Shown: piece after piece, positions 14,986 to 33,516 of the stretch | Layout: each line of letters begins with the position of its first letter | Position numbering within the stretch: position 1 is the stretch's first letter | Assembly (NCBI RefSeq): GCF_001442535.1 | Contig: NZ_CP013141.1 | Location: forward strand, 625,196 to 689,195 | Length of the DNA: 64,000 bases | Source of the DNA: Lysobacter antibioticus | GTDB lineage: Bacteria; Pseudomonadota; Gammaproteobacteria; Xanthomonadales; Xanthomonadaceae | Direction: 5' to 3' | Program-made: the position numbers and the translations under genes | The notes under the pieces: model-generated | Seen by the model: the letters and a program-made list of their open reading frames with translations, nothing else | The model's database searches: none | Told to the model about the DNA's origin: nothing

Positions 14986-15768
14986 ATGGCCATACGCAAT
15001 ACCCGCTCGCGCCGGCAACAGATCCTGCAGTGCCTGATCGAACGCGGCTCGGTGCAGGTGGCCGAGTTGGTCGAGCGCTTCGACGTGTCGGCCGTGACCA
15101 TCCGCGCCGACCTCAGCCATATCGAATCGCAGGGCCTGGCCACCCGCACCCACGGCGGCGCCAACCTGGTGCGCACGCCGCCGCAGGAACAGGACATCCA
15201 CGAGAAGGACGCGCTGAACCTGCCGCTGAAGGAATCGATCGGCGCGCGCGCCGCGCAGTTGGTGCAGGCCGGCGACAACATCATCATCGACTCCGGCTCC
15301 ACCACCATGACCCTGGCCCGCCATCTGCGCGGCCATCGCGACGTCACGGTGATGACCAACGGCCTGAACATCGCCTGGGAACTGGCCAACGCCCCCGGCG
15401 TGGACGTGCTGCTCACCGGCGGGCTGCTGCGCAAGCAATCGCTGTCGCTGCAGGGCAGCCAGGCCGAGGCCAGCCTCACTGCCTACAGCTTCGACACCTT
15501 GTTCCTCGGCGTGGACGGCCTGGACCTGCAGTTCGGCCTGACCACCCACGATGAGGCCGAAGCCCGCCTCAACCACCGCATGGTCGAACGCGCGCGCCGC
15601 ATCGTGGTGCTGACCGACGCCTCCAAGTTCGGCCGGGTCAGCCTGCACCGCATCGCTCACCTCAACCAGGTCCACGCCATCATCACCGACGCCGGCATCG
15701 ACGAGCGCTACCGCGAAGGTCTGCAGCAATTGGGCATCGAATTGATCATCGCCGAGCCACAACCGTGA
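14986..15768 (+). CDS. agaR: DeoR-family repressor of the GalNAc regulon
   Basis: A 260-aa protein with a DeoR helix-turn-helix at residues about 8-60 ('RRQQILQCLIERGSVQVAEL', 'FDVSAVTIRADLSHIESQGL'). A DeoRC effector domain follows ('IIIDSGSTTMTLARHL', 'TNGLNIAWELA', 'LFLGVDGLD'), typical of regulators that sense phosphorylated sugars. A GalN-6-P or tagatose-phosphate inducer is expected. It is encoded within the operon it should control, and many CTTTCG boxes lie in the divergent region at 11137-11359. Its last four bases overlap the agaA start (GTGA). Confidence 0.88.
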   Translation: MAIRNTRSRRQQILQCLIERGSVQVAELVERFDVSAVTIRADLSHIESQGLATRTHGGANLVRTPPQEQDIHEKDALNLPLKESIGARAAQLVQAGDNIIIDSGSTTMTLARHLRGHRDVTVMTNGLNIAWELANAPGVDVLLTGGLLRKQSLSLQGSQAEASLTAYSFDTLFLGVDGLDLQFGLTTHDEAEARLNHRMVERARRIVVLTDASKFGRVSLHRIAHLNQVHAIITDAGIDERYREGLQQLGIELIIAEPQP

Positions 15769-16907
15769 CCGAATTGCACAGCTTGCAAGGCCGCATCCTG
15801 ACCCCCGAGGGTTGGCGCCGCGGACGCATCAGTTTCGATCACAAGATTCGCGTTATCGAGGAGGGTTCTGCAAAAGCGGGTCCGGTCCAGGCAGGTTCGA
15901 TCGACGGCATCGACGGCGACGAAGCCATCGTCCTGCCCGGCTTCATCGACCTGCACGTGCACGGCGCCGCAGGCGTCGACCTGATGCAAGGCAGCGACGC
16001 CGCGCGCACCATCGCGCGCACCCACGTGCGCCACGGCACCACCGCTCTGCTCGGCACCACGATGACCGCCGCCGAGGCCGACATCGTCCACGCCCTGCGC
16101 GGCCTGGCCACGGCCATCGCCGAACCCGACCCGAATGCGGCGCAGATCCTCGGCGTGCACCTCGAAGGCCCCTTCATCAGCCCGCAGCGCCTCGGCGCGC
16201 AGCCACCGCTGACCGTCGAAGCCACCTTCGAATCCGTGCAACGCCTGCACGCACTCGCGCCGATCCGCGTACTGACCCTGGCGCCGGAAATCGGCCGCCA
16301 CACCGAACTGATCCCGCTGTTGAACACACTGGGCATCCGCGTCCAAATCGGCCACAGCGCCGGCACTTACGAAGAAGGCCTGGCCGCACTGCGCGCCGGT
16401 GCCGCCGGCTTCACCCATCTGTTCAACGGCATGACCGGCGTCGACCACTACAAGCCCGGCATCGCCGCGGCTGCCCTCGCCCACGCCGAATACGCCGAAC
16501 TGATCCCCGACCTGCAGCACGTGCACCCCGGCGCCATCCGCCTCGCCGTGCGCGCCATCCCGCGCCTGTACGCCGTCACCGACGCCACCGCCGCCACCGG
16601 CATGCCCGACGGCGAATACGCACTCGGCTCGCAGCGCGTGCACAAATGCCTCGGCTGCGTGCGCCTGGCCAGCGGCTCGCTCGCCGGCAGCGCACTGACC
16701 ATGGATCAAGCACTACGCAACTTGGTCGAAGTTGGGCTCGACCTGGCCGACGCCGCGCGCCGTGTATCGACCTTCCCCGCCGACTACCTGGGCCTGACCG
16801 ACCGCGGCCGGCTGGAGCCGGGTGCCTGCGCCGATCTGGTGGTGTTGGATGCCCAGTTGCGGGTGATGCGGGTGGTGGTTGCGGGGCAGGCTGTCGAGTT
16901 GGCTTGA
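15765..16907 (+). CDS. agaA: N-acetylgalactosamine-6-phosphate deacetylase
   Basis: A 380-aa amidohydrolase with a GTG start overlapping the agaR stop. Metal and catalytic residues of the NagA/AgaA fold are visible: 'GFIDLHVHGAAGVD' (HxH), 'GVHLEGPFISP' (Glu), 'IGHSAGTYEEG' (His), 'HLFNGMTGVDHYKPG' (His) and 'YAVTDATAATG' (catalytic Asp). It removes acetate from GalNAc-6-P to give GalN-6-P for AgaS. It is the last gene of the operon. NagA, acting on GlcNAc-6-P, is the close alternative; the agaS/agaR context favours GalNAc. No clear terminator follows, only a hairpin without a T-run at 16932-16948. Confidence 0.9.
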   Translation: MTELHSLQGRILTPEGWRRGRISFDHKIRVIEEGSAKAGPVQAGSIDGIDGDEAIVLPGFIDLHVHGAAGVDLMQGSDAARTIARTHVRHGTTALLGTTMTAAEADIVHALRGLATAIAEPDPNAAQILGVHLEGPFISPQRLGAQPPLTVEATFESVQRLHALAPIRVLTLAPEIGRHTELIPLLNTLGIRVQIGHSAGTYEEGLAALRAGAAGFTHLFNGMTGVDHYKPGIAAAALAHAEYAELIPDLQHVHPGAIRLAVRAIPRLYAVTDATAATGMPDGEYALGSQRVHKCLGCVRLASGSLAGSALTMDQALRNLVEVGLDLADAARRVSTFPADYLGLTDRGRLEPGACADLVVLDAQLRVMRVVVAGQAVELA

Positions 16908-16915
16908 CTCGCCCC

Positions 16916-17011
16916 CTACCTCCCCAACCGTTTCGCCTGCCAGGCGAACATATCCATCGGCAGCGCGATGTTGATGGCTTGCTGACCAGCGCTGTTCGCT
17001 AGCTGGCACGC
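16916..17011 (-). pseudogene. Possible 3' remnant of a gene at the island edge
   Basis: One minus-strand frame gives a 31-residue tail, 'QLANSAGQQAINIALPMDMF' then 'AWQAKRLGR' and a stop. Its composition looks like real coding sequence, but it has no start codon and a stop lies directly upstream (17012-17014). It may be the end of a gene cut when the island next to it arrived. I cannot name the parent gene, and chance is possible. Confidence 0.25.
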
Positions 17012-17095
17012 CTAATTAGGGGCCGGTCGCACAAACAATCCGATATGGGAATCATGTCGCAAAAGAAGACATAGGATCAGGCGACCCGCAACCGG

Positions 17096-17203
17096 ATGAA
17101 GCGCAGAGAGATTGAAACGCGTCGCTCAATGCCGTTTGAGTCCATATGGATCAGCGCACGAGAGCGCAGCTACGAAGCTGCGCGGGATGAACAGCGCCGC
17201 TAG
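17096..17203 (+). CDS. Small charged ORF at the island edge, uncertain
   Basis: A 35-codon ORF, MKRREIETRRSMPFESIWIS and a charged tail ending 'ARDEQRR'. It lies in the 570-bp gap between agaA and the CoiA-like gene. No clear ribosome site precedes it. It could be a small protein or a leftover of a larger gene. The rest of this gap holds the G-tract array and no other candidate. Confidence 0.2.
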   Translation: MKRREIETRRSMPFESIWISARERSYEAARDEQRR

Positions 17204-17248
17204 AGAAAGTTTGACTGTGTCGGTGGCTGGGCCAACCAAACCCGGGCT

Positions 17249-17336
17249 CAAACCCTCTTGATGGGCGAATGGGGGCCATTGAGGGCCATTGCGGGGGCTG
17301 AATGGGGTTCCGAGGGCTGGTCAGGGCTAGTCATGG
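17249..17336 (+). repeat. G-tract array A: 18-bp core followed by G-runs every 10 bp
   Basis: The array starts with CAAACCCTCTTGATGGGC (17249-17266). G-runs of 2-5 then begin at 17263, 17271, 17283, 17293, 17304, 17314, 17324 and 17335, a period of 10 bp. The spacers are mostly variants of C-CATT or CTGAAT. The same 18 bp and the same 10-bp rhythm recur at 22115-22249. The period is not a multiple of 3, which argues against coding sequence. It could fold as a G-quadruplex or serve as phased protein sites; both are inference. Confidence 0.8.
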
Positions 17337-17480
17337 CTCCCTAGGACCGACCCACTGATGTCCGCCGTCAGCCAATAGCGGACGAGCCCCTCCCCGTGGC
17401 AACAGTCTCGCGGCGTGCGACGAGCTTGTGCCAATCTAACTCCATGCGCCCCTCACCCGCCCCTCCAACACACGCCCCCT

Positions 17481-18308
17481 ATGCAGTACGTCCTCGTTGA
17501 CGGCAGCCGCAAAGAAGCAATTCCTGGTGGACATGGGTTATGCGAAACCTGTGGCTCGGTGATGGTGGCCAAATGTGGGCCGCGTGTAATGCATCACTGG
17601 GCGCATTTCAGCCGTCGAAATTGCGATCCATGGTGGGAAAACGAAACCCCCTGGCACCGGGCATGGAAGAACTTGTTCCCGGAAACATGTCGCGAGATTA
17701 GCCATGTGGCTCCCGACGGGGAGATTCACCGCGCGGACATTAAGACCCCAACGGGAATCGTGATCGAGGTGCAGCACTCGGCAATGACAGACCAAGAGCG
17801 CCTCTCCCGCGAGGCCTTCTACGGTAACCTTGTCTGGATCCTAGACGGCAGCGCGTTTCACAACAACTTCCAGATTCACCACATGCTTCCCGATCCCAAG
17901 TCGGCCGTAGCACAAGATCTAATCTGGACTCCTGCCGGACCACGCCTGCAGGGGGCCAACCGCGGCATCTTCGTGCGTTTGTCGGAGTGCCTGAAGGAAG
18001 ACCCGACAGTCACAAAGGCGACGGCGCGAGGCGGCTGGATGCATTTCTTACCCGACATCGAAGCAGAAGTCCGCGAGGCGTACCGGGGGCACCACCAGTA
18101 TGTCTGGATCCGCCCACGCCGCACCTGGCTAGACGCAACTTGCCCTGTATACATCGACTTCGGGGAAGACTGGCTGGCGCGCCTCGATACCTACGATGAG
18201 ACGGGTTTACCCTGTCTACTCCGAGTCAGCAAGCGCAAGTTCTTGCATGACGTGATGGTGGAGACCAACGTACGCGCGATCGCTACCCGCTATTACCCGA
18301 TTCCGTGA
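17481..18308 (+). CDS. CoiA-like protein with zinc-finger and PD-(D/E)xK-type nuclease residues
   Basis: A 275-aa protein from the ATG at 17481; the frame is open to 17415 without similarity. The N-terminus carries a CxxC pair (Cys21, Cys24) and 'HHWAH' (38-42), the zinc-ribbon seen in competence protein CoiA. The nuclease core is 'HRADIKTPTGIVIEVQHS' with Asp86, Glu96 and Gln98 in the D-ExQ arrangement, followed by 'ERLSREAFYGNLVWILDG'. CoiA relatives are linked to processing of incoming DNA and also occur in defence islands. It is the first gene inside the bracketed island. It is unlikely to be the housekeeping competence gene, since nothing else for DNA uptake is near. Confidence 0.75.
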   Translation: MQYVLVDGSRKEAIPGGHGLCETCGSVMVAKCGPRVMHHWAHFSRRNCDPWWENETPWHRAWKNLFPETCREISHVAPDGEIHRADIKTPTGIVIEVQHSAMTDQERLSREAFYGNLVWILDGSAFHNNFQIHHMLPDPKSAVAQDLIWTPAGPRLQGANRGIFVRLSECLKEDPTVTKATARGGWMHFLPDIEAEVREAYRGHHQYVWIRPRRTWLDATCPVYIDFGEDWLARLDTYDETGLPCLLRVSKRKFLHDVMVETNVRAIATRYYPIP

Positions 18309-18509
18309 AAGCGCCCCACCCCAAGCCGCTTTCAAGAAACGTCTCGTAAACAGTGAAGCCTCGCTCGTACGCCGCGGTCCGAGGCTGCATTCTCGTCGAG
18401 CCGGAGGGAGTAATTGACCGGTGTCAGCTGCCTGTCGGGGTCCTGTCGTGTCGCCGATCCCGATGAGTTTCTAGTCTGGGATTCTCGATACCAAAGGAGT
18501 GACCGCTTC

Positions 18510-19199
18510 ATGGACCCCCAGAATATCGCCACCCCGCCCCGCCAGCTGACAGCCGCCGAAGTCGGTGCTTGCGTACGACTATTTCGCGAGTTGCGCCACT
18601 GGTCGCAAGAACAGTTAGCCGAGATCTCCGGTCTGAATGTCCGCACCATCCAGCGCGTAGAACAGGGCAGTTCCGCAAGCTTCGATACGCGCCGCGCCCT
18701 GGCCCGTGCCTTTGAGTTTGAAGACATCGACGCTCTCAACAAGCCCTTTTCGGTACCCAGCACTGAGGAGTTGCAGGCCGCACAGGCAGATTTCGAGCGT
18801 GAGCACATCACGCTGGCCATGTCTCCCCTGACGTCGGGTCGTCAGCTCGCCAGTCTGGTCACGTCCTGCGAAATGGACTTATCGGAACCCGCCTTCGAGT
18901 TGCCACGCGAAGCGGCCGAGGAATTCGCTGTTCTTGTGGACTACTACCGCGACTATCGGGACTGCCACGATCTCTACTCGGAGACACAAAAGCTTGAGGT
19001 CTACGAAGACTTGCAGCGGCACGTCGACGCGTTGCGCGCTCTGGGCGTTTCTTTGTGCCACGGATCCCGCAAAGTTCGCGTTGGCCTCGCCCAGCCAGGA
19101 ATAGACCCGCTGATCGCTACAGTCCTATACGTGGTGGCATTTCGGGTAGGCCATGAACCGGCCCAGATCGCCACACCTAAGGCCGCTCGCATCGGCTAG
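18510..19199 (+). CDS. XRE-family helix-turn-helix regulator
   Basis: A 229-aa protein from the ATG at 18510, with AAAGGAG upstream. Residues about 18-70 are an XRE/Cro HTH ('RLFRELRHWSQEQLAEISGL' then 'NVRTIQRVEQGSSASFDTRR'). The rest, about 150 residues, is a helical region without a family I can name. It may regulate the neighbouring island genes. It lies 200 bp after the CoiA-like gene and converges on the next gene. Confidence 0.8.
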   Translation: MDPQNIATPPRQLTAAEVGACVRLFRELRHWSQEQLAEISGLNVRTIQRVEQGSSASFDTRRALARAFEFEDIDALNKPFSVPSTEELQAAQADFEREHITLAMSPLTSGRQLASLVTSCEMDLSEPAFELPREAAEEFAVLVDYYRDYRDCHDLYSETQKLEVYEDLQRHVDALRALGVSLCHGSRKVRVGLAQPGIDPLIATVLYVVAFRVGHEPAQIATPKAARIG

Positions 19200-19230
19200 C
19201 GGCATCGGCTTAAATAATTCTTAGACCGCA

Positions 19231-19923
19231 TTACTTGACGGCCTGCGGCTTAACAGCTCGGTCAATGACTGAGTTGGTTCTTTCATGCACGAACTCCATT
19301 AACTTGCCAACGGATTCCGTTGCTTGGTCTAAGTACGCCGCTTCAACTCCAATCTCAGAGTGAGTAACGTCAACGCCTGCAATTTTACCAAGGGCAGAAA
19401 TTTGCTCTTTTGTAAGCGACAGTCTCTCGCCATTGTGATGCACAAGTGCGTTGCGCAGAGCAAGAAGATTCTTAATAGGGCTCCACAGATCATCTGGAGT
19501 TTCAAAGGAGCCATGCCTTTCGAGATAGGTCTTACGAGCGCTCCAAGGGTCACCCTTAAGCTCAGATGGCTTGAACAGGATCTTGTCACCAAGCGCAGTT
19601 GAGAGTCGGTCACATTCGCGCTTAATTGCGCTCTCAAGAAGAGAGGCAACAAAGATTACATGTGAGTAGCGCGCCCTCTTGCGATAGTAGCCAACTGCAA
19701 CGACACCACTGTCGTTGATCTCTTCAGCGCCTGCGGAAACCTGCTCCTGAATGTATTCCTGCTCCTCCGCCTCCATCTTCGTCCAAGTCTCTTCGGTTTC
19801 GTTTCTGAACCAGCGAAAGAGGTCCAGTTCGTAGATTTCCAGTGAGCGATGCCCCCTCAATCCAGCAAGGAAGTGCTTCCGCATTGAGTCCTTCAAGTAG
19901 CCGGGAATTGGTCCGAGTTCCAT
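19231..19923 (-). CDS. Unknown protein with an RX4H (HEPN-like) motif
   Basis: A 230-aa protein from the ATG at 19923, which has GGAG five bases upstream. 'LLALRNALVHHNG' contains Arg157-x4-His162, the RX4-6H signature of HEPN ribonucleases, in a helical C-terminal half. The N-terminal part ('EEQEYIQEQVSAGAEE') is helical and acidic. GC content is clearly lower than in the core genes around the island. HEPN domains act as RNases in abortive infection and toxin-antitoxin modules, but many RX4H proteins of this type are uncharacterised. No adjacent MNT-like antitoxin is seen. Function is therefore a weak inference. Confidence 0.65.
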   Translation of the reverse strand: MELGPIPGYLKDSMRKHFLAGLRGHRSLEIYELDLFRWFRNETEETWTKMEAEEQEYIQEQVSAGAEEINDSGVVAVGYYRKRARYSHVIFVASLLESAIKRECDRLSTALGDKILFKPSELKGDPWSARKTYLERHGSFETPDDLWSPIKNLLALRNALVHHNGERLSLTKEQISALGKIAGVDVTHSEIGVEAAYLDQATESVGKLMEFVHERTNSVIDRAVKPQAVK

Positions 19924-20003
19924 CACTACTCCAAGTATGGTCTAACGCTTGAATTGAGTCTCGATGCGAGGCGGTGTCAGCTTGAATGAGTTATTAGCTA
20001 GCA

Positions 20004-20750
20004 TTACGTGTACCTAGGGATTCCCAACATACTTGACACTCGAATGCGATCACCAAGGCCAGCCTGCTCTGCTGCTTGCCTTATGGCTTGGATCTCAGGC
20101 TGATCGAGAGACGGGCCAAGGAATATGCGATCCACCAGTACATCGAGATTAAAAGGAGCCTTGATTCCTTGCTCAGGGACGGCAACACCGAACTCCTCAG
20201 CTAAGCTAAGTGAGATACCGAGTCGGAACTCGCGCTCCCAGGAAAATGCCATGTGCTTGTGCCAGAATCTTGCCAGTGAATTCACTCGAAGCCTTTCTTG
20301 GAGCAAGTCAACGTACTTCACGTTGCCACACCAAAGATCTTCGCCTTGATGTTGCGGCTCTAGTCGAAAGGTGGTCGCCGCCTCCGACAAGCGGCCCGGG
20401 GTTGTGCGAATCGCAACGCCTTTCCAAGCGCCGGCATACAGCTGCCACATCGCATCGCTTTCGTAGATCGAGCGATGCCAGCAATTGATCTTTGTCAGTC
20501 TCCGGAGCTCTTCAAATGCACGCTCACCGAGTTCGCCGTCGAGCGGGTAGCGGGGATCTATGTAGGCTCCGGGAGGTAGTACGGCAGTGGCACCCTCGAA
20601 TGGATCTTGAAACTGGCGGGCCGCAGCAAAGTATAGCTGCCCAGATTCTAGAAGATCGATGAATCGCTCCGTCTTGAAATACCGCCAGAGATGCTCTTCT
20701 TCATCGATCACTTCGTCGGTTGCGTTACGCAAGGGCGCCTCTGCTAGCAA
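20004..20750 (-). CDS. DUF2971-like protein
   Basis: A 248-aa protein. The N-terminus 'LWRYFKTERFIDLLESGQLY' and 'FAAARQFQDPFEG' match the DUF2971 pattern (LxKY...LWFSxPxxFNDPFE). 'INCWHRSIYESDAMWQLYAG' and 'GVAIRTTPGRL' are the later conserved blocks. The role of the family is not established; members are frequent in accessory and defence regions. Start choice is poor: the frame opens at a TTG (20750), and a GTG 13 codons inside is a rival. It shares its strand with the HEPN-like gene 80 bp downstream and may share a transcript. Confidence 0.7.
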   Translation of the reverse strand: MLAEAPLRNATDEVIDEEEHLWRYFKTERFIDLLESGQLYFAAARQFQDPFEGATAVLPPGAYIDPRYPLDGELGERAFEELRRLTKINCWHRSIYESDAMWQLYAGAWKGVAIRTTPGRLSEAATTFRLEPQHQGEDLWCGNVKYVDLLQERLRVNSLARFWHKHMAFSWEREFRLGISLSLAEEFGVAVPEQGIKAPFNLDVLVDRIFLGPSLDQPEIQAIRQAAEQAGLGDRIRVSSMLGIPRYT

Positions 20751-20925
20751 TAGCCGGATCTCGGGACCCGGTTACAAATTATCAACAGCGCACCGCATGA
20801 TGAGCTATCCCCTCGATACGGCTTGATCTTAGGGCTACTGGGTCCGGCAAACAAGCAAGCGCTTAACCAGACACAGCGACTAGACCTAAAGCGCTCGTGG
20901 CGAGCATCAGGTGAGGCTTGGCAAT

Positions 20926-20949
20926 GTCCGCTTTGGGTCGGAAGTGGAC
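20926..20949. other. Hairpin with 8-bp stem in the gap 20751-21027
   Basis: GTCCGCTT (20926-20933) pairs with AAGTGGAC (20942-20949) with one G-T wobble. It is followed by GTTAGC. Hairpins of this sequence are common in intergenic DNA of environmental Proteobacteria. It could be a recombination-site remnant or part of a terminator without T-run. No gene was found in the 277-bp gap around it. Confidence 0.4.
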
Positions 20950-21027
20950 GTTAGCACCGCGCTGGTCGCGGATAGCTGTAGCAATGAGGAATATGACGCT
21001 TGCACCGCCCTCTATTAGGAACCCTGC

Positions 21028-21915
21028 TTAACCTGACTGGCCGCCCGGATCTGCCGCGCCTGATACCAAGAGAAGCTCGCGAATAATCGCGCGAGCACGA
21101 GCGACTTCTTCGGGGGGAGCGATGCTTAAAGCCTGCTCAAAATTGCGCTTAGAAGACGCGACGATATCGATCTCAGCATCTTGCTCTTTGGCTGATACAG
21201 GAATAGAAAAATGTTTCAGCGCCGCAGACAACTTCTGATATAGCAAAACTTTCCGCTTCTTGCTAACTCGCTCACTGAATTCCTGTTTGAGCTGATCATT
21301 TATGAGCGCATCGTCATCTATAGACCGGCCATAATCATTGTCACGACTGACAATGACTAGCTCCGCGTTTTGCACCCGCGCGCATTCAACCATCCACTCC
21401 CAGTTGAAGCAATCGCCAAATGACGTATCGCCATTCTTTCGGGGCGGACATCCATGCAAGAAACGCCGGATTGCCCTACGTCGCATTACCAACTTGCCAG
21501 GACTTGACCTCGCTAAAACTAGAGAGTCATCCTTGTGAAAAATTCGCTGGCACGTTTGATAGACAGGATCAAACCGGGATGGATCAATGAGCGCGCGCTT
21601 CAGCTTGGCCCTTAATTCAGCGACACGCCTTTTGGCCGTCTCCACATCTTTGCTAAGCATTTGCGTCGTACGCAAATCTGTTACAAATCCAGGATGAATA
21701 ATTTTTGCAGGAGGCTTCAGTTCGGTTATCCCCTCAATAATAGCCGCCTGTCTATTCTTCTTGTATTCAATCTCGAGCTGAAACGTAACGATAATCTGAC
21801 TTGAAACGGACTCGACTCGCTTCAACAATTGCAACCCCGCCTCGTTTCTAGCGCGGTAAAAATCGAGCCAGATATTAGTATCAACGAAAAGAATCTTTCG
21901 AATCTTGGATGGCAT
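21028..21915 (-). CDS. PIN-domain nuclease, DUF4935-like
   Basis: A 295-aa protein from the ATG at 21915; the frame is open to 22011 without similarity. PIN acidic residues are visible: Asp12 in 'ILFVDTNIWLDFY', Glu48/50 in 'FQLEIEY', Asp168 in 'SFGDCFNWEWM' and Asp192 in 'IVSRDNDYG'. The long insertion between the second and third acidic blocks and the total length fit the DUF4935 (PIN_12) group rather than VapC. Such proteins are found with other effectors in conflict islands. The likely activity is metal-dependent RNA cleavage. No cognate antitoxin is adjacent. The C-terminus is Ala/Glu-rich and helical. Confidence 0.75.
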   Translation of the reverse strand: MPSKIRKILFVDTNIWLDFYRARNEAGLQLLKRVESVSSQIIVTFQLEIEYKKNRQAAIIEGITELKPPAKIIHPGFVTDLRTTQMLSKDVETAKRRVAELRAKLKRALIDPSRFDPVYQTCQRIFHKDDSLVLARSSPGKLVMRRRAIRRFLHGCPPRKNGDTSFGDCFNWEWMVECARVQNAELVIVSRDNDYGRSIDDDALINDQLKQEFSERVSKKRKVLLYQKLSAALKHFSIPVSAKEQDAEIDIVASSKRNFEQALSIAPPEEVARARAIIRELLLVSGAADPGGQSG

Positions 21916-22114
21916 CGATACCGTCCCCAGCCAGCAGATAACTGCTATAACGCGTTTGCAGGCTGAATCAGGACACCGGCATGAAATCGGCCTAAGGAAC
22001 GCTAGTTGCACGCGTCATAAACACTCTCGTCTGAGTTACCAGGGTTTGGTGGACGCTTCCAGACGGGACTACTCCGCATGCCCTACCCTGTCTCACGCTG
22101 CCCATTACCAGTCT

Positions 22115-22249
22115 GGGGGCTAATGGGGGCTCTTGGGGGTCAATGAGGGCCATTGGGGGTTGGTGGGCCCACCAGGACCGGAGCAAACCCTCTTGATGGG
22201 CTGGTGAGGATTCCTGGGGGCGAATGGGGGCTATTGGGGGCTATTGGGG
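22115..22249 (+). repeat. G-tract arrays B and C with the shared 18-bp core between them
   Basis: Array B has G-runs starting at 22115, 22125, 22135, 22147, 22155 and 22165. The 18-bp core CAAACCCTCTTGATGGGC is at 22184-22201, identical to 17249-17266. Array C has runs starting at 22216, 22226, 22236 and 22246. Spacing is 10 bp with almost no drift, and typical steps read CTATTGGGGG. Together with array A this brackets 17249-22249. It lies upstream of the CHAT-protease gene, so it could also affect that promoter. Confidence 0.8.
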
Positions 22250-22416
22250 CCGGCAGCCTTGTCACGCTCTCCTGACCAGTAACATCTGCACATCACGGCC
22301 TTACAGGCGAGCCCGGGAACTGACACTCTACAAAAGCCCATTCCGCTATCAGCCTGGATACCGGCGGGTATCCATGTCCTGGTAATTCCAAAGCCGGCTA
22401 CGGAGAGCCAACAATC

Positions 22417-24612
22417 ATGGCAACCTCGATCGAGGGTCAAGTCGGCCCCAACTCGGACGAAGTCACAGACTCGCACGAGGACGGCGTCTCATCGGACCTG
22501 CAGCACGCTGGCTCCTTGAATTACTGGCTGATTACTCCAGAGATCGGCGAGCAGCATACGACCTTCCAGGGGTTCAGCGCTGACCTTCTGATGATTCGGG
22601 GGTTCGACGAACTGATTCATTTAATGTCGATCTTGCCAGCGAGCGCCTACGAGGTCTTCGCCTCTCCCGAACAATTGCTGCGGGCGCGGCGACCGGTGTC
22701 ACCGAAGCGGGCATCGATCGTAAACATTTCACTGTTCCTGGAGCATTGGCCCCAGCTGAGCGACGCCCCTGGGATCCACGTGATCCTGGGGCAGCCCCCG
22801 CAGGTTCGCGCTGCGATATCAACTATCCGTGACGAAAACGCGCTGTTTGTCTGCATCGACCGGGTGGAAGGTGCGATCAACTTCCACGATCATATAGGGT
22901 TGCCAGCACAACTACTCGATGACGCGCTGGCCCTGGCGCTACTAACGCGCCTCCCCGCGTCACTGCGCGAGCGTACCAACCGCGCGGTGCTGCGCGGCCC
23001 CTTTCCGCAGAGCGACGAGCCCTCGCGCATCAACGGCGTCACCGTCGCGAACGAAACCCTCGCCGAGTCGTTGGGCTACGTCTACCGTGGCCAAAACGGT
23101 ATTCTCGGGCCCGACCAGATATACGTCGACGCCATTCTCCATTCGGCGCACCGCACCCGAAGCCTTATGGGCGGCCATTCGAACGGCTTGATTCTATACG
23201 CGCCGGCGATGGCTCGGCACTTGTACACGTTCGGAACCACGATCTGGAACAACCTTTTTCGTGAGATCCCTGACCGCGAGACACGCGAATTGATAAAGAA
23301 CGGCCTGTTCCGCAATCCGCACTACTCCGGCTTCTCAATGCCCTTGCGCGACGGTCGGCCACCGAAGAATCCCTACGACGACCCAGCGGCTGCGGCGCTG
23401 CTGTCTGTGAGGCAGCACGAGTTGCGTTTGACCGGCGCCGGGGTCGGTGCACTCTCTGCCAATAGCATGCAGCCAACGTTGCGCCTACCGAACGGCGTGA
23501 ACTTCCACGGTGGGATCCTGCGCGAGATCGAACGCCACGCCGACCGCGCCGATCCGCGCGGCCGCGCGTTGCTGCAGAAGAACTATCTCGAACTCGCCCG
23601 GAGCATGCACAAGCAGATTCATCCAGACATCCTCGACGACATTCACCACCACCAAGGGCAAATCACTTTGGTGGCCGACGCGCCGCTAGAATGGCTGCGC
23701 ATCGACGGTCTCCCGTTGATGATCCGACATGAACTGTCGCGTATCGGCATGACTCCAGGCAATCAAATGCTCTCTCAATGCATCGAGATGGGCATGAAGG
23801 TTCTGCCTGAAGATGCATTGCAAGAGATTCTGGTGATCCGCTCATTTGCGGAGGACGATCCGATCCGCATGCACTTAAGTCGTGCCATCGATATTTGCGA
23901 ATGCAACACTGTGAAAGTCACGTTCGTCGATGTAGCAAGCCGCGCGGAGTTGATCGCGCGCCTAAACGAGTTCTCAGGCGCAATCGCTGTGTTCGACTGC
24001 CACGGAGGCCACGACGGCGACGACAGTCACGGCTGGCTGCACATTGGCAAGGAAAAGATCGATGTCTGGCAATTGGCGCACGTCGCGCGAGTTCCTCCGA
24101 TCGTCGTGCTCAGCGCCTGCTCGACGTTCGCATTGGCGGGGTCGCATGCGTCGGTGGCAAACGGACTGTTGCGCTCTGGCGCAATTACCGTGCTCGGGAC
24201 GTTCCTGCCGGTAAATTCGCAGCGGTCGGCCGCGTTCGTCGCGCGCCTGCTGCTGCGCCTCGACCAATTTCTACCGGCAATACGCGCGAGTGGCGTCAAG
24301 ATCATTACCTGGCGAGCCTTCGTCAGTGCATTCATGCGCATGGCCTATGCGACCGATCTTCTCTACCTTTTCATCACCGAAAAACAATGGTTGGAGCACG
24401 ACCGATTCGCCCGCATTAGCGTTAAAGCGAACATGGACATTAATACTTTGCATCCTAGGTGGTACCGCCGTCTGTTGCGCCGCATCGGCGCGGCCGCTGG
24501 CCGGCCCATTGAGGAGGTGACAGCGGTGATCGAAAACGAGTCCCCACTGCTGGAGACAATGTACTACTGTCAGATCGGTCGGCCGGAGACGATCGGCATC
24601 GAACTCGTTTGA
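22417..24612 (+). CDS. CHAT-domain (caspase-like) protease with unknown N-terminal domain
   Basis: A 731-aa protein with ATG at 22417 after CGGAGAG. The C-terminal half is a CHAT domain: 'LVADAPLEWLRIDGLPLMI' (about 415-435), 'AVFDCHGGHDGD' with catalytic His529, 'VVLSACSTFALAGSH' with catalytic Cys568, then 'ANGLLRSGAITVLGT'. The first about 400 residues match nothing I know and contain no TPR or other repeat. A tail of about 100 residues follows the protease. CHAT proteases act in conflict systems by cutting a partner protein after a trigger. Neither trigger nor substrate is evident. No gasdermin-like gene is seen; a three-TM membrane protein lies 1 kb downstream on the other strand. Confidence 0.85.
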   Translation: MATSIEGQVGPNSDEVTDSHEDGVSSDLQHAGSLNYWLITPEIGEQHTTFQGFSADLLMIRGFDELIHLMSILPASAYEVFASPEQLLRARRPVSPKRASIVNISLFLEHWPQLSDAPGIHVILGQPPQVRAAISTIRDENALFVCIDRVEGAINFHDHIGLPAQLLDDALALALLTRLPASLRERTNRAVLRGPFPQSDEPSRINGVTVANETLAESLGYVYRGQNGILGPDQIYVDAILHSAHRTRSLMGGHSNGLILYAPAMARHLYTFGTTIWNNLFREIPDRETRELIKNGLFRNPHYSGFSMPLRDGRPPKNPYDDPAAAALLSVRQHELRLTGAGVGALSANSMQPTLRLPNGVNFHGGILREIERHADRADPRGRALLQKNYLELARSMHKQIHPDILDDIHHHQGQITLVADAPLEWLRIDGLPLMIRHELSRIGMTPGNQMLSQCIEMGMKVLPEDALQEILVIRSFAEDDPIRMHLSRAIDICECNTVKVTFVDVASRAELIARLNEFSGAIAVFDCHGGHDGDDSHGWLHIGKEKIDVWQLAHVARVPPIVVLSACSTFALAGSHASVANGLLRSGAITVLGTFLPVNSQRSAAFVARLLLRLDQFLPAIRASGVKIITWRAFVSAFMRMAYATDLLYLFITEKQWLEHDRFARISVKANMDINTLHPRWYRRLLRRIGAAAGRPIEEVTAVIENESPLLETMYYCQIGRPETIGIELV

Positions 24613-24704
24613 GTCGCCAAGCAGAAGCGCGCCATCACCGACGTGAGGTCCGAGCCATACTTGTCGTCGGTCGACGACCGCGAAGCTTCTTCGACTAGAA
24701 GGAG

Positions 24705-25322
24705 TTAGGCATTAGCCGTAAGCGGCAAGATCTCACTTTGCTTCTCTAGAGTGGTCGCATGAAACCATTCAATAAGTAAGCCGCCATCGTCAATGATCTG
24801 CAAGAAGTACCCAGTTGCTGGGCTGCAGTTCACGGCTGAGTTGCGGTCAATAACCTCTTTTATTTTAGGCAGATAGTGTACAAACAGAGCTAGCTGTACC
24901 TCTAGATCTTCGGACGAGTTAGGAAGGAGCCGAAGCCCAGTGCCAAAGTAGCGATCTGGCTCTGGCAAAAACAGAATTATTTCAGCTTTTGTCTCGTATG
25001 TGCTAACCGAGCGCATGATCGCGCGCGCAATTGCACGCAGCGAGTTTGCACCAGAGAAGATGCCAGAGACAATTTTACCCCTAGCGCGCCACGATTCTTT
25101 CGCGGCCTCCTTGACGAGCTCCGCTATGTATAACGCCGCGTAGGCTGACAGGCCTTGTTGCCACCATGATAGTTCCGCAGCCAGTTTGATCCAGGATGGT
25201 GCATCCGTGGATTTATAACCAACGACTTCTGAATCAATCTCAACGTTCATGTATGGCCGAAGATCTCTATAAAGATCATCAATCTGGACCAGAGCGACGT
25301 CAGAAGTTCGTTGAATTTTCAT
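24705..25322 (-). CDS. Hypothetical protein
   Basis: A 205-aa protein from the ATG at 25322; a TTG 14 codons upstream is a weaker alternative. It is soluble, with mixed alpha/beta composition ('LFLPEPDRYFGTGLRLLPNS', 'ATGYFLQIIDDGGLLIEWF'). I recognise no motif, signal peptide or membrane segment. It converges with the CHAT-protease gene. Codon use and lower GC match the rest of the island. Confidence 0.6.
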   Translation of the reverse strand: MKIQRTSDVALVQIDDLYRDLRPYMNVEIDSEVVGYKSTDAPSWIKLAAELSWWQQGLSAYAALYIAELVKEAAKESWRARGKIVSGIFSGANSLRAIARAIMRSVSTYETKAEIILFLPEPDRYFGTGLRLLPNSSEDLEVQLALFVHYLPKIKEVIDRNSAVNCSPATGYFLQIIDDGGLLIEWFHATTLEKQSEILPLTANA

Positions 25323-25477
25323 GTCAAGTTCTATCCAGTAAGCAGCCGCGGCCCGTTTAAACAATTAATTACAAAACGCCACAGGGCGCTCTGCCCTGCT
25401 TTCCATTTCATCTTATGCCGTGGCCCAGACGGCGAACAAGCCGACTAATTTAACGCCCGTCTAATCGCAGATCCTAG

Positions 25478-25636
25478 TCATGCTACCCGAATGACGGCGA
25501 CTTCATTTCCGCGTTCGCCAAGCTCGCGGATCCAATCATGGACTTCGCCTCGGCCGCCGGCCACTACGCATGCGAGCACGCTGATCAGCGCATTGACTAG
25601 TTGCTCATCGACGCCGGCAAGATGGATTCCGCCCAT
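25478..25636 (-). CDS. 52-aa ORF directly after the membrane-protein gene
   Basis: The ATG at 25636 begins 23 bp after the stop of the membrane-protein gene on the same strand and runs to a TGA at 25478. The peptide opens 'MGGIHLAGVDEQLVNALISV' and ends 'RELGERGNEVAVIRVA'. It is amphipathic with balanced composition and looks like genuine coding sequence. The overlapping plus-strand ORF (25491-25784) has the Pro/Ser-rich composition of a shadow frame. It may be a small partner of the membrane protein. Confidence 0.45.
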   Translation of the reverse strand: MGGIHLAGVDEQLVNALISVLACVVAGGRGEVHDWIRELGERGNEVAVIRVA

Positions 25637-25659
25637 CGTCAGACCTGAATTTCCAAAGC

Positions 25660-26754
25660 CTAGGGCAATGGTTGGCTCTTCTGGGCAGGCACAGGCGGGG
25701 CAGACGCCGCTTTCGCCGTGGCTTGAGGTGCCGATTGTGCTGGCGGGCTGGTCGGGGGCATGGGGCGATGGGTTACTGAGCTAATTGCGATCCAAGTTAT
25801 TACGCCCACCACCAGAAGGGTTTGAATGAAGGCGTACACGGCCTGCCATTGAGCTGCCCGCAATGTCGACTGAGCGTCGCTCATGACATCCCCCGACTGG
25901 GCACGTTCAATTTGCTTGCGAACTCGGTGTCGCATTGGCCAAATTGAGCCCTGCAGCGCCGCCTTGGCCAAAACGGAGAGGCTGTACTGCGAGGGTCCAG
26001 TCTCGGCGATGCTGCGCCCGATCGTTTCACCTGACGCGCGAGCCGCAACGGTCACCGCGTTCCACTTCTGCTTCAAACCGAGCAACACCATGACCGCCAA
26101 GACGACTAGAACCCCAGTGATAATTGAGGGTGTGACGAACAAGGGGACCTTGTCCTTGTTGGTCACAATGAGTGCCGCAAATGCTGCGTAGCTTGCGGTG
26201 AGCCAAGTGGAATAAGTATCGAAGAGCGACGCCCCCTTTTCGGCGCTTTGAATAAGGATTGCCCTGGCGTTGAACGTTTCCTGCGACAATTCGGCATTCA
26301 TTAGGGCCTGCACATAGTCGGTGAGGGCGACGAGCTTGGCCTCGGCTCTCGTCCAGTCTGCGGATACTGACGCCGGAAAGCCTTTACCCCGGAGACGCTG
26401 GTCGACGTCGACCATTCTCACGAGGACTCGCCTGCTTTCGCTGATCAAGACTCCCTGGACGAATTCGAGAACAATCATTACGTCGTGCTGCTGCTCCCTA
26501 GCCGTTTTTGCAGCAGTCTGGATCCAGATTTCAGCAGCGTTCCGAAGGAATGGGTCGATGAAGCTGGTGTCCCAGTACACATCCCGGGGGGAACCTTCAA
26601 ATTCGATTCCTTCATAACCGATTTCCGTGCCATCGGCCCGGATAATCTGAATGCCCTGACGGAAATTGAGCCAAGGATCGATCTTTTTCCGAGTGAGGCT
26701 GCGAAACCCTTCTTGAATCAATCCTTCTAGAACGAAATGGCCGGTTGTCGTCAT
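25660..26754 (-). CDS. Three-TM membrane protein, unknown function
   Basis: A 364-aa protein from the ATG at 26754, preceded by AAGGA. Residues 1-180 are soluble. Transmembrane helices are predicted by eye at about 181-199 ('WLTASYAAFAALIV'), 206-227 ('IITGVLVVLAVMVLLGL') and 305-327 ('YAFIQTLLVVGVITWIAI'). The last about 35 residues are Pro/Ala/Gln-rich. The soluble N-terminal part contains 'IRADGTEIGYEGIEFEG' and a helical segment. No family is recognised. A membrane effector with cytosolic sensor would have this shape, but so would many unrelated proteins. A 52-aa ORF follows 23 bp after the stop. Confidence 0.65.
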   Translation of the reverse strand: MTTTGHFVLEGLIQEGFRSLTRKKIDPWLNFRQGIQIIRADGTEIGYEGIEFEGSPRDVYWDTSFIDPFLRNAAEIWIQTAAKTAREQQHDVMIVLEFVQGVLISESRRVLVRMVDVDQRLRGKGFPASVSADWTRAEAKLVALTDYVQALMNAELSQETFNARAILIQSAEKGASLFDTYSTWLTASYAAFAALIVTNKDKVPLFVTPSIITGVLVVLAVMVLLGLKQKWNAVTVAARASGETIGRSIAETGPSQYSLSVLAKAALQGSIWPMRHRVRKQIERAQSGDVMSDAQSTLRAAQWQAVYAFIQTLLVVGVITWIAISSVTHRPMPPTSPPAQSAPQATAKAASAPPVPAQKSQPLP

Positions 26755-26767
26755 AGTCCTTCTCGAT

Positions 26768-26887
26768 TCACTCCGATTCGATCGCGGCGAGGTTGGCGGT
26801 TGACCAGCGGCCGACGTAATACTGCCCTTGTCGCAGGCTGGCCGCAGGCGCGCTGAGACGCTGGTGGTCGTCCCGGCGCGGGACCAC
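26768..26887 (-). CDS. 39-codon ORF upstream of the membrane-protein gene, doubtful
   Basis: From a GTG at 26887 the minus strand reads 'MVPRRDDHQRLSAPAASLRQ' then 'GQYYVGRWSTANLAAIESE' and stops 13 bp before the membrane-protein start. The C-terminal half has convincing protein-like composition. A stop a few codons upstream limits it. It may be the tail of a decayed gene. The region 26888-27463 upstream contains no credible gene, only short discordant frames and the inverted repeat at 27280-27375. Confidence 0.2.
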   Translation of the reverse strand: MVPRRDDHQRLSAPAASLRQGQYYVGRWSTANLAAIESE

Positions 26888-27279
26888 TATGGCTTCTCAC
26901 GGCTCGCCCCAGTTCCGTCGAACTTGGCCGACAAAGACTCGCTTCGGCACCCGTTCAAGCAGAAAGTATTCCCTGGCGAAATGGCGCTAGACCAAAGACT
27001 CGGCAGGGTGAAGGGCATACGCCAATGGTAGCGCTCCCGGTCATCACCCAGTCGATCTCGCTGCTGCTCACGGCGCAAGATTGCGCGGACTTCGGCCATC
27101 GCTGGGATCAATTCAGACCGTGCGTGGCGTAGCCACGTAGGCGCCGGCGAGCGAACTCAATCAAGGTGGCCTGGACAGCGGTTTCATCGGGGTGGGCTCC
27201 CGAAATCCATCATTCCGGGTGACGGTACGCAGGCTCCCGGGCGCGGGCGTCGAAAAGCTTGGGGGACGGAGGCGATCTC

Positions 27280-27375
27280 GGACATAACGTGTATCTATGC
27301 GCAGCCCCAATGACGGCCTCGCAAGCAATCGCATCTAGCGGCTTTGACTACTTCGCGGAGTCCCACGTTATGTCC
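27280..27375. repeat. 96-bp element bounded by a perfect 12-bp inverted repeat
   Basis: GGACATAACGTG (27280-27291) is exactly complementary to CACGTTATGTCC (27364-27375), enclosing 72 bp. The inside does not extend the stem well. It lies in a geneless stretch at the end of the accessory island, just before ssb. Size and outer boxes recall an integron attC site or a miniature element, but the inner boxes needed for attC are not clear. Confidence 0.5.
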
Positions 27376-27463
27376 AAGACCGTCCATCCAACATATGCAA
27401 CTAAGCAGGCCCTTAGGGTGTCAGCACCTCCAGCGCCGAGCTATAGCCCCTAACGCCACAGAC

Positions 27464-28028: not shown

Positions 28029-28399
28029 GGGATTCCTTACATATTGCCGGGGGTACGGCCGGGATGATGGATTATAGCGGCCTCCCCGGCCATCGGCGCC
28101 GGGCGCGGCCGGGCGTGGGATTTGTCCGATCGGGGTGTCCGGATGGAGGACGTGCGGCCGGGTCTGATGCCGTCGAATCGGGGCGAGAGCCTTGGCTCGC
28201 TTGGGTCTGGGGCCACACCGGGTGCGCGGTCCGACCAGGAGTTCGGCGGCCGGCGGCTCGCTGCAGGGATCCGGGGCCTGACGCCGGCCCGATCGGCGGG
28301 AAGCATCCGCAGGTGCCGGGACAGCTCTGTCGGGTCTTGGCCTTGAAGGCCGATCCTCCTTACGCGGCACGCGAAGCATGGCGGTCGCGGCTTGCGCCG

Positions 28400-28882
28400 C
28401 TCCTACAAGGGCTACGGGTAGTCGCGCCGCGAGGTTGAAGCGGCGCGGTCGCGGCTTGTGACCGAAGGAAATCCAGCAGGACGCCGCTCCTACAGGGGCT
28501 ACGGACCGTCGCGCCGCGAGGTTGAAGCGGCGCGGTCGCGGCTCGCGCCGCTCCTACAGGGGCTACGGACCGTCGCGCCGCGAGGTTGAAGCGGCGTGGT
28601 CGCGGCTCGCGCCGCTCCTACAGGGGCTACGGACCGTCGCGCCGCGAGGTTTAAGCGGCGTGGTCGCGGCTTGTGACCGAAGGAAATCCAGCAGGACGCC
28701 GCTCCTACAGGGGCTACGGACCGTCGCGCCGCGAGGTTTAAGCGGCGCGGTCGCGGCTTGTGACCGAAGGAAATCCAGCAGGGCGCCGCTCCTACAGGGG
28801 CTACGGACCGTCGCGCCGCGAGGTTTAAGCGGCGCGGTCGCGGCTTGTGACTGAAGGAAATCCAGCAGGACGCCGCTCCTAC
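28400..28882 (+). repeat. Tandem array of 64- and 87-bp units, seven copies
   Basis: The word CTCCTACA starts at 28400, 28487, 28551, 28615, 28702, 28789 and 28876, giving spacings of 87, 64, 64, 87, 87 and 87 bp. The long unit equals the short one plus a 23-bp block carrying GACCGAAGGAAATCCAGCAG. Each unit holds a palindromic GCCGCGA...TCGCGGC part, the motif found singly at many intergenic sites in this window. The array fills the gap between ssb and the next gene. Predicted reading frames inside it are products of the repeat. Confidence 0.9.
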
Positions 28883-28914
28883 AGGGGCCACGGACAGTCG
28901 CGCCGGCAGGCGGC

Positions 28915-32879: not shown

Positions 32880-33516
32880 TTTTGGTTGGGGAGGCGCCCC
32901 TCCCCTGTAGGCGCGGCGTCCTGTTGGATTTCCTTCGGTCACGAGCCGCAACCGCGTCCTCTCAATCGCGTCGATGTCGGCCGTAGCCCAGGGTAGGAGC
33001 GACGCAAGTCGCGACATCGTTGCTACCTGCTTACGGCGTATCCATCAAACAGGATCAAAACCTAGATCAAACGCTAAGAGCTTCCGCCACTAAAGCGGCG
33101 GGTTACTTTCTTTTGTCTAAAGCAACAAAAGTCCATCTGGATTCCCTTCGGTCAAAGCTAACCAAAGAAGTTGCTTTTCTTTGAATCCGGCCCGCACGTT
33201 CGGTGCCGACGCAGGGCTCTACATACGGGAAATCCTTGTCCCGATGAAAAACGGCGCGCATCCCTGCGCGCCGCCCTTCGGGTCTTCTGTTGCCTTCGCG
33301 AGTGCGAGGCGGCGCACAGCCATAGCCAGAGGCAGGGCTAAGGCCTTAAACCGAACTGGCTTCGAAAGATTTTCGTCGACCGGGATTCGCGGTCGCGGCT
33401 TGCGCCGCTCCTACCCTAAGAGCAAGCGCGTGCCCTTGCTGTTGCCGTGAAGAGCTTGGCGCAGCCGCGAGCTTACAAGAACAGTTGGAGACCCGGAGGG
33501 CCTGCGGCCGGTTACA
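32880..33516. repeat. Intergenic dispersed repeats (650-bp gap)
   Basis: This gap holds several single copies of the GTAGGAGCGGCGC-type repeat (about 32897-32955, 32993-33025 and 33378-33420). It also holds one copy of a longer element from about 33050 to 33325. The longer element contains TAAAGCGGCGGGTTACTTTC, a CCCGATGAAAAACGGC block and GCCTTCGCGAGTGCGAGGCG. Closely similar copies lie at 56907-57160 and 57583-57715. No gene is supported here. Confidence 0.8.

Follow-up and report, generated by a model that had tools for sequence, protein, structure and literature searches.

What are the evenly spaced G-runs that border a group of accessory genes in Lysobacter antibioticus? We analyzed a stretch of 64,000 nucleotides (hereafter the window; contig NZ_CP013141.1, positions 625,196 to 689,195), for which a preliminary description had offered three roles for these arrays, namely attachment sites of a mobile element, phased binding sites or a G-quadruplex boundary. 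We propose, with a probability of roughly 0.72, that the arrays are the ends of integrase-less tRNA-Met islands carrying phased candidate arm sites, and that these islands are moved by the integrase of another element. The first two of the offered roles appear compatible with each other, judging by ends that were seen both filled and unfilled at tRNA-Met. Handles starting with G and L denote genomes and loci respectively (G000 being the genome of the window), and feature coordinates are collected in Table 1.

The 18-mer that anchors the arrays (CAAACCCTCTTGATGGGC) is present exactly at both 17249-17266 and 22184-22201, as had been reported, and a search allowing up to 3 mismatches gave 2 matches in the window for 0.08 expected. 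A third exact copy is located on the minus strand at G000:C1:5135422-5135439, with its own G-run array spaced by 10 bp. The three-unit pattern TGRGGGY-N3 matched the window 4 times, all within 22114-22240 (4 matches were reached in 0 of 100 shuffles), and the pattern of five GGG with N7 between them has just 2 occurrences in the 5.77-Mb genome, one in array B and one at the third copy. The reported recurrence of G-runs about every 10 bp next to the 18-mers was borne out, although array A is not strictly periodic: its run ends are spaced by 10, 10, 12, 10, 9 and 10 bp and its eighth run is GG only. Spacings are 10, 10, 10, 10 and 8 bp in array B, and 20, 10, 10 and 9 bp in array C, where one unit is broken. 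Across 22 arrays of the genus, with limits set by hand and a unit table biased by the search pattern TGRGGG, spacings are exactly 10 bp in 72 of 102 cases and 9 to 11 bp in 83. A codon repeat was rejected, the arrays being outside the accepted genes of the window. A search for tRNA or Rfam RNA at the window sites found none.

The arrays have a fixed place relative to a core sequence. Left ends are ordered core then array, and right ends consist of a conserved stretch of ~100 bp followed by the array and then the core. The fullest form of the core common to the copies is TGGTGGAGCCACGGGAACCGGGTTCAAACCCTCTTGAYGGGC, after which the G units start, and some copies also have G units before the core. 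Read on the opposite strand, the core ends in CTCCACCA, which resembles the end of a tRNA. ARAGORN detected a tRNA-Met(CAU) immediately adjoining the right-end array in G019 and G009. Filled and unfilled sites could be aligned at tRNA-Met, filled in G019 and unfilled in G000 and G017: in the latter two, the tRNA-Met ends in GGGCCCACCA followed by a flank starting with CTCC or CCCC, and in G019 the order is tRNA-Met CCA, array, 1.95 kb of element, left-end array, GTGGCTCCACCA and then the flank of the G000/G017 unfilled site. The sequence GTGG..CCACCAC is common to both G019 junctions and the G000 unfilled site. A G-type array directly follows CCA at 3 of 12 tRNA-Met loci (G019, its near-identical relative G009, and G007). 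The G019/G009 and G007 copies are thus inserted at the tRNA 3' end, and the window copy holds only 17 bp of tRNA-Met. Left and right ends with sites of attachment (att) type were both found in G019/G009, in G004 and in the window.

These junctions bear on the possibility that the islands need no recombinase at all, being moved, lost or joined through homologous or RecA-independent recombination between repeated ends while the arrays have no present function. This would account for copies that are scattered, rearranged and devoid of recombinases, and it has a precedent in the H47 island of E. coli, whose excision apparently uses none of 16 site-specific recombinases of K12 (PMC5426353). We nevertheless consider it improbable, because the exact G019 junction at tRNA-Met CCA with a short core, together with the likewise placed array of G007, argues for site-specific integration at least once, and because even diverged copies retain the unit motif and its spacing. 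As a separate observation, the left flanks at L050 9493 and L044 18856 resemble DNA downstream of tRNA-Met, yet the cores there lack a tRNA gene, as though core and flank had travelled together.

The window was then compared with relatives at the same place, between genes matching Pfam Amidohydro_1 (nagA-like) and SSB. The distance from the amidohydrolase gene to ssb is about 200 bp in G009 and G019, and 10.6 kb in G000. G017, which is 93.6% identical to the window across a 6.3-kb backbone block, has the same left flank (80% identity over window 17100-17276), core and array, but homology stops near 17276, gives way to other DNA and resumes at 27352. The nagA-ssb place thus holds variable DNA, since the gap is short in G009/G019 and G017 carries other DNA. 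This comparison covered 19 ssb loci (a G005 match was excluded as it is not an ssb locus), and in none of the genomes examined were the island genes kept without the arrays. We read site A as a left end and site B as the junction of a right end with the left end of another element (element 2). The 5-kb island bracketed by arrays of the preliminary description is hence retained in that the arrays are element ends, but these do not form a simple pair, and the insert does not end at 22249, given where G017 homology resumes. The right end of element 2 was sought by eye in the window sequence and not found. G017 also carries, just outside the core, partial second copies of the backbone (L051 10253-10519) that match window 15342-15495 and 16428-16540.

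To look for periodicity without assuming a motif, we scanned for four 6-mers at fixed spacing with up to 2 mismatches in 35 loci (512,817 bases) chosen around arrays, tRNA-Met loci and integrases. The scan yielded 17 matches at period 10, all at array ends, compared with 0 to 8 at the other periods from 7 to 15, and no period-10 match in five Markov resamples. These 17 matches represent fewer independent arrays (L264 contains the L046 array again, and L048 is near-identical to L049), and the scan is strict, missing arrays known otherwise at L008, L043, L044, L051 and L052 as well as array A of the window. One array found by the scan, in two overlapping loci, is not G-type and has the motif TTAYCCA; in G005, TTAYCCA arrays with 10-bp spacing are located at three related cores (one detected by the scan, two by eye). 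An intact P4-type integrase (Arm-DNA-bind_3 and Phage_integrase) at tRNA-Met in G010 is accompanied by three CTGGAC units spaced by 10 bp. What is presumed to be the far end of this element lies about 47 kb from the tRNA and carries a 15-bp tRNA-Met repeat. Upstream of 46 viral relatives of the G010 integrase, a strict three-unit array with period 10 was present in 8 (two of which, L309 and L310, are near-identical upstream) and arrays with other periods in at most 1; inside the viral integrase gene, period 10 gave 0 matches and period 13 gave 1. These 46 loci come from a set of 80, the remaining 34 having their match within 130 bases of the locus start. At three viral loci, tRNA-Met is followed by units such as CCTCTCA or CTTCTCA, close to GCCCTCA. 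The arrays thus agree in spacing and place but differ in motif, which is what diverse DNA-binding domains would lead one to expect.

This variation of the motif also bears on G-quadruplexes, through which the arrays might act as barriers or recombination starters at island borders. On the plus strand of the window, 20 of 21 starts of canonical G3N1-7 quadruplexes lie in the three arrays, making the proposed quadruplex boundary physically possible by pattern. It is however unneeded, as arrays with the same spacing and other motifs exist, and we regard it as very unlikely: many units read TGAGGG, which shortens the G-run, the T, G and Y that flank the run are conserved (partly owing to the search pattern), and equivalent arrays in G005, G010 and viral loci have no G-runs.

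In order to assess how widespread the ends are, we searched the 18-mer with up to 1 mismatch in 199 genomes and found it in 8, all among the 20 Lysobacter (0 of 179 other genomes). A 151-nt query of a two-sided site retrieved exactly these 8 of the 20 Lysobacter genomes, and the right-end pattern (up to 2 mismatches) was found in 9 of 395 genomes of the family, namely those 8 and one of another genus, whose match has 2 mismatches and is satellite-like. The search of Lysobacter relatives that had been suggested as a check thus located ends in 8 of 20 genomes, where several copies are rearranged. Searches of viral contigs, plasmids and phages for the element ends gave no match. A wider contig scan with a four-unit G pattern matched 109 stretches; among the 80 of these and 12 viral stretches inspected by eye, most are perfect tandem satellites, and only L123 and L138 (both Lysobacter) carry tRNA-Met or right-end sequence. 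We found no report of such ends among the top matches listed for Lysobacter literature in open-licence PubMed Central.

Perfect 10-bp TGAGGG satellites in many other bacteria raise the question of whether the Lysobacter arrays are themselves neutral satellite repeats found at island borders by chance. This is the least probable of the explanations considered, in view of the three spacer bases that vary from unit to unit while TGRGGGY is kept, the position of all 17 scan matches at array ends with none in five resamples, and the lack of strict arrays elsewhere in the G000 genome. Two groups of stretches from the wider scan are recorded here in their own right. Six loci from metagenome-assembled genomes (MAGs) of Saprospiraceae and other Bacteroidota (L074, L075, L112, L115, L120 and L133) carry perfect 10-bp tandem arrays of TTGATGAGGG or TTTATGAGGG, arranged in L120 as an inverted pair flanking a hairpin, and look like an unrelated satellite. 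Three loci of one Rhodospirillales MAG, OFTM364 (L063, L090 and L111), have TGGGGG units at 10 bp with similar flanks and are possibly ends of another element.

We then searched for a recombinase that could act on the ends. None of the eight island proteins of the window matches a Pfam recombinase. In the eight array-bearing genomes, PF00589 gave 28 matches, none of them between paired ends, and PF13356 gave nine matches in seven of nine genomes, again with none between paired ends (one, in G005, is an N-terminal fragment between a tRNA-Leu and a right end). An Arm-DNA-bind_3 integrase next to attL, which is a feature of P4-type elements, was likewise not found between paired ends. XerC- and XerD-like integrases are presumably among the PF00589 matches of all eight array-bearing genomes. 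Two short pieces of decayed integrase adjoin the third core of G000, the larger being 94% identical to the G010 tRNA-Met integrase. Only one PF00589 match is near an array, and this match (G009:C66:10191-10676) is part of a separate insertion on the far side of tRNA-Met. Viral, plasmid and phage records contained no parent element with G-type ends. A second insertion in G009 (L048 10098-11261; G009:C66:17816-18293), which has an intact integrase and splits the locus ~40 bp into the tRNA-Met gene, is independent of the array element.

In the mechanism that we propose, the array ends would be of attL/attR type and their core would recombine with tRNA-Met(CAU) at its 3' end, CCACCA. Inside the element, each end carries about 3-8 direct 10-bp units NNNTGRGGGY (RCCCYCANNN when read outward from the tRNA). 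With one unit in every helical turn, they most likely serve as tandem sites to which a P4-type tyrosine integrase binds by its arm-binding domain, the second choice for the protein bound being an excisionase. Binding would keep the protein aligned for synapsis and for strand exchange at the core. Carrying cargo and no recombinase, the islands would move through the tRNA-Met-specific integrase of another element. We infer the arm-site role from place and spacing only, and we likewise infer the binding protein, the action of a foreign integrase, the tandem arrangement in the window and any present mobility.

The excisionase alternative retains the mobile element and takes the arrays as sites for an excisionase (recombination directionality factor) bound head to tail, one monomer per turn. 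Excisionase sites generally lie on one arm, and arrays at both ends of clean pairs speak against this alternative; it is because of these pairs that we rank arm sites first and excisionase sites second. The motif is moreover well kept, and no excisionase gene was found in the islands, though no search was aimed at one. On the other hand, the unit spacing fits excisionase sites, and runs of up to eight units would suit an oligomer. Factors of this type recognise tandem repeats with a spacing of one DNA turn (PMC7498355), which also counts against arm sites, and the same paper describes an att site of phage 186 with five direct repeats at 10-11 bp; RdfS binds as one protein per 10 bp, with no strict consensus (PMC11963761). 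The Apl (phage 186) and RdfS sites described in these two papers resemble the Lysobacter arrays in that direct repeats follow each other at intervals of about one helical turn within att sites, but belong to phages or integrative and conjugative elements with their own integrase, and the lack of a strict RdfS consensus is a further difference. Arm-type and excisionase sites are both present in the attL of a tRNA prophage (PMC2951348). We consider excisionase sites a possible reading, if an unlikely one.

Further results weigh against islands of tRNA-Met moved by a foreign integrase through arm sites. The shared GTGG..CCACCAC is shorter than the shared sequence usual for tRNA islands. Most copies are now away from tRNA-Met, and some are rearranged (an inverted site in G006, a lost core in G004, ends ~220 kb apart in G007). 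The only two examples of an unfilled nagA-ssb place come from G009 and G019, near relatives of each other; once the G000 and G017 loci are set aside, 15 of the remaining 17 ssb loci have no nagA within 1.5 kb. No integrase with a G-type array was found in genomes of the genus or in viral, plasmid and phage records, the presumed far end of the G010 element showed no period-10 array in the three-unit scan, and 38 of the 46 viral loci have none. Finally, the later result on H47 means that an island devoid of a recombinase is no proof of one that uses another element's.

Several known systems share part of this organization. Integron gene cassettes are, like the Lysobacter islands, small recombinase-free cargo units in tandem with a site each; the Lysobacter islands differ in targeting a tRNA end and in having arrays that are double-stranded and phased. 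The attL of elements with a P4-type integrase at tRNA genes has the same order, in which direct repeats at 10 bp come after a core formed by the tRNA 3' end, but with about three repeats, other motifs and an adjoining integrase gene. Cis-mobilizable elements (CIMEs; PMC5704250) keep attL and attR, have no integration or transfer genes and can stand in tandem with further elements that use their target. Both structural features of CIMEs, att sites at both ends and no integration genes inside, are present in the Lysobacter islands, which are however much smaller (0.8-5 kb) and bear a long 10-bp array at either end; a parent element with ends of this kind was not found, and their mobilisation is only proposed. 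In Dehalococcoides, islands are arranged in tandem at the 3' end of the ssrA RNA gene, and 15 of them have no integration module and may be cis-mobilizable elements (PMC3146451); they differ by a serine recombinase, a tmRNA target and a 20-bp direct repeat, and the available portion of that paper mentions no periodic array. H47 is small and excises without an integrase of its own, its authors calling it parasitic, but it has long imperfect repeats and no tRNA target is named in the available portion of PMC3191183. In the way they would work, the Lysobacter islands resemble CIMEs and parasitic integrase-less islands, and what sets them apart is their small size and the long phased arrays at both ends.

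More tentatively, and we think this rather doubtful, the islands may represent a class of recombinase-free cassettes that live on the tRNA-Met integrases of other elements, a long, helically phased landing array at each of their two ends attracting a filament of integrase or excisionase more strongly than the short array of the helper does, and their defence-like genes being shuffled in tandem. If so, this class would be comparable in role to integron cassettes, with double-stranded att sites of filament type. If foreign integrases do move the islands, these would carry defence-like genes in the manner of satellites and could compete, through the length of their arrays, for the enzyme of the helper. 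On the proposed reading, an odd periodic DNA pattern becomes a signature of mobile-element ends, and period-10 arrays adjoining a tRNA 3' end suggest a motif-free way to find such ends, which could reveal small islands without integrase that are missed by searches for integrase genes.

Table 1. Features of the insert between the nagA-like gene and the ssb region (window coordinates)
Feature	Position	Strand	Basis or context
Whole insert, read as two tandem elements	16908..27351		between nagA-like amidohydrolase gene (end 16907) and ssb region
Left flank and degenerate outer half of core A	17100..17248	+	comparison with G017
18-mer, left-end half core of element 1 (site A)	17249..17266	+	exact match, aligned copies
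Array A, left-end array of element 1	17263..17345	+	spacings
Weakly CoiA-like protein	17415..18308	+	Pfam
XRE-type helix-turn-helix (HTH) protein	18414..19199	+	Pfam
HEPN-like protein	19231..19926	-	PADLOC RTasHEPN, E 1.2e-8; no Pfam match
DUF2971 protein (PADLOC PDC-S31)	20004..20750	-	Pfam, PADLOC
PIN-domain protein	21028..22011	-	PIN_12, E 6.1e-21
Conserved right-end stretch ahead of array	22039..22111	+	right ends of six species aligned
Array B, right-end array of element 1	22112..22160	+	pattern matches, spacings
17 bp identical to tRNA-Met(CAU) 3' end, adjoining array B	22161..22177	-	sequence identity
18-mer, left-end half core of element 2 (site B)	22184..22201	+	exact match
Array C, left-end array of element 2	22198..22250	+	pattern matches, spacings
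CHAT protein, PADLOC BovA, cargo of element 2	22417..24612	+	E 5e-210; Pfam CHAT
Open reading frame (ORF) without family match	24705..25364	-	Pfam, PADLOC
ORF without convincing family match	25660..26754	-	Pfam, PADLOC

The cargo is defence-like. For element 1, the labels given in the preliminary description fared unevenly: the XRE regulator (HTH_3) and the PIN protein (PIN_12) are solid and DUF2971 (PDC-S31) is just over the cut-off, whereas the CoiA-like label is weak (CoiA_N, E-value 5.8e-4, under the family cut-off), and the HEPN-like protein is supported by PADLOC but has no Pfam match. Element 2 combines a very strong BovA (CHAT) match with two proteins of unassigned kind. Among the other clean pairs, that of G004 encloses a single DUF3892 gene within about 0.8 kb and that of G019 two ORFs with no Pfam match. 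At the right edge of the insert, an inverted repeat was seen by eye (GGACATAACGTG at 27279-27290 and CACGTTATGTCC at 27366-27377), and further on, related intergenic repeats at window 28395-28905 and 32902-33015 flank genes beyond ssb. Adjoining the third core (L008 928-9179), caspase-subtilase, caspase and HEAT-repeat genes stand in a row, followed by a phage lysozyme gene.

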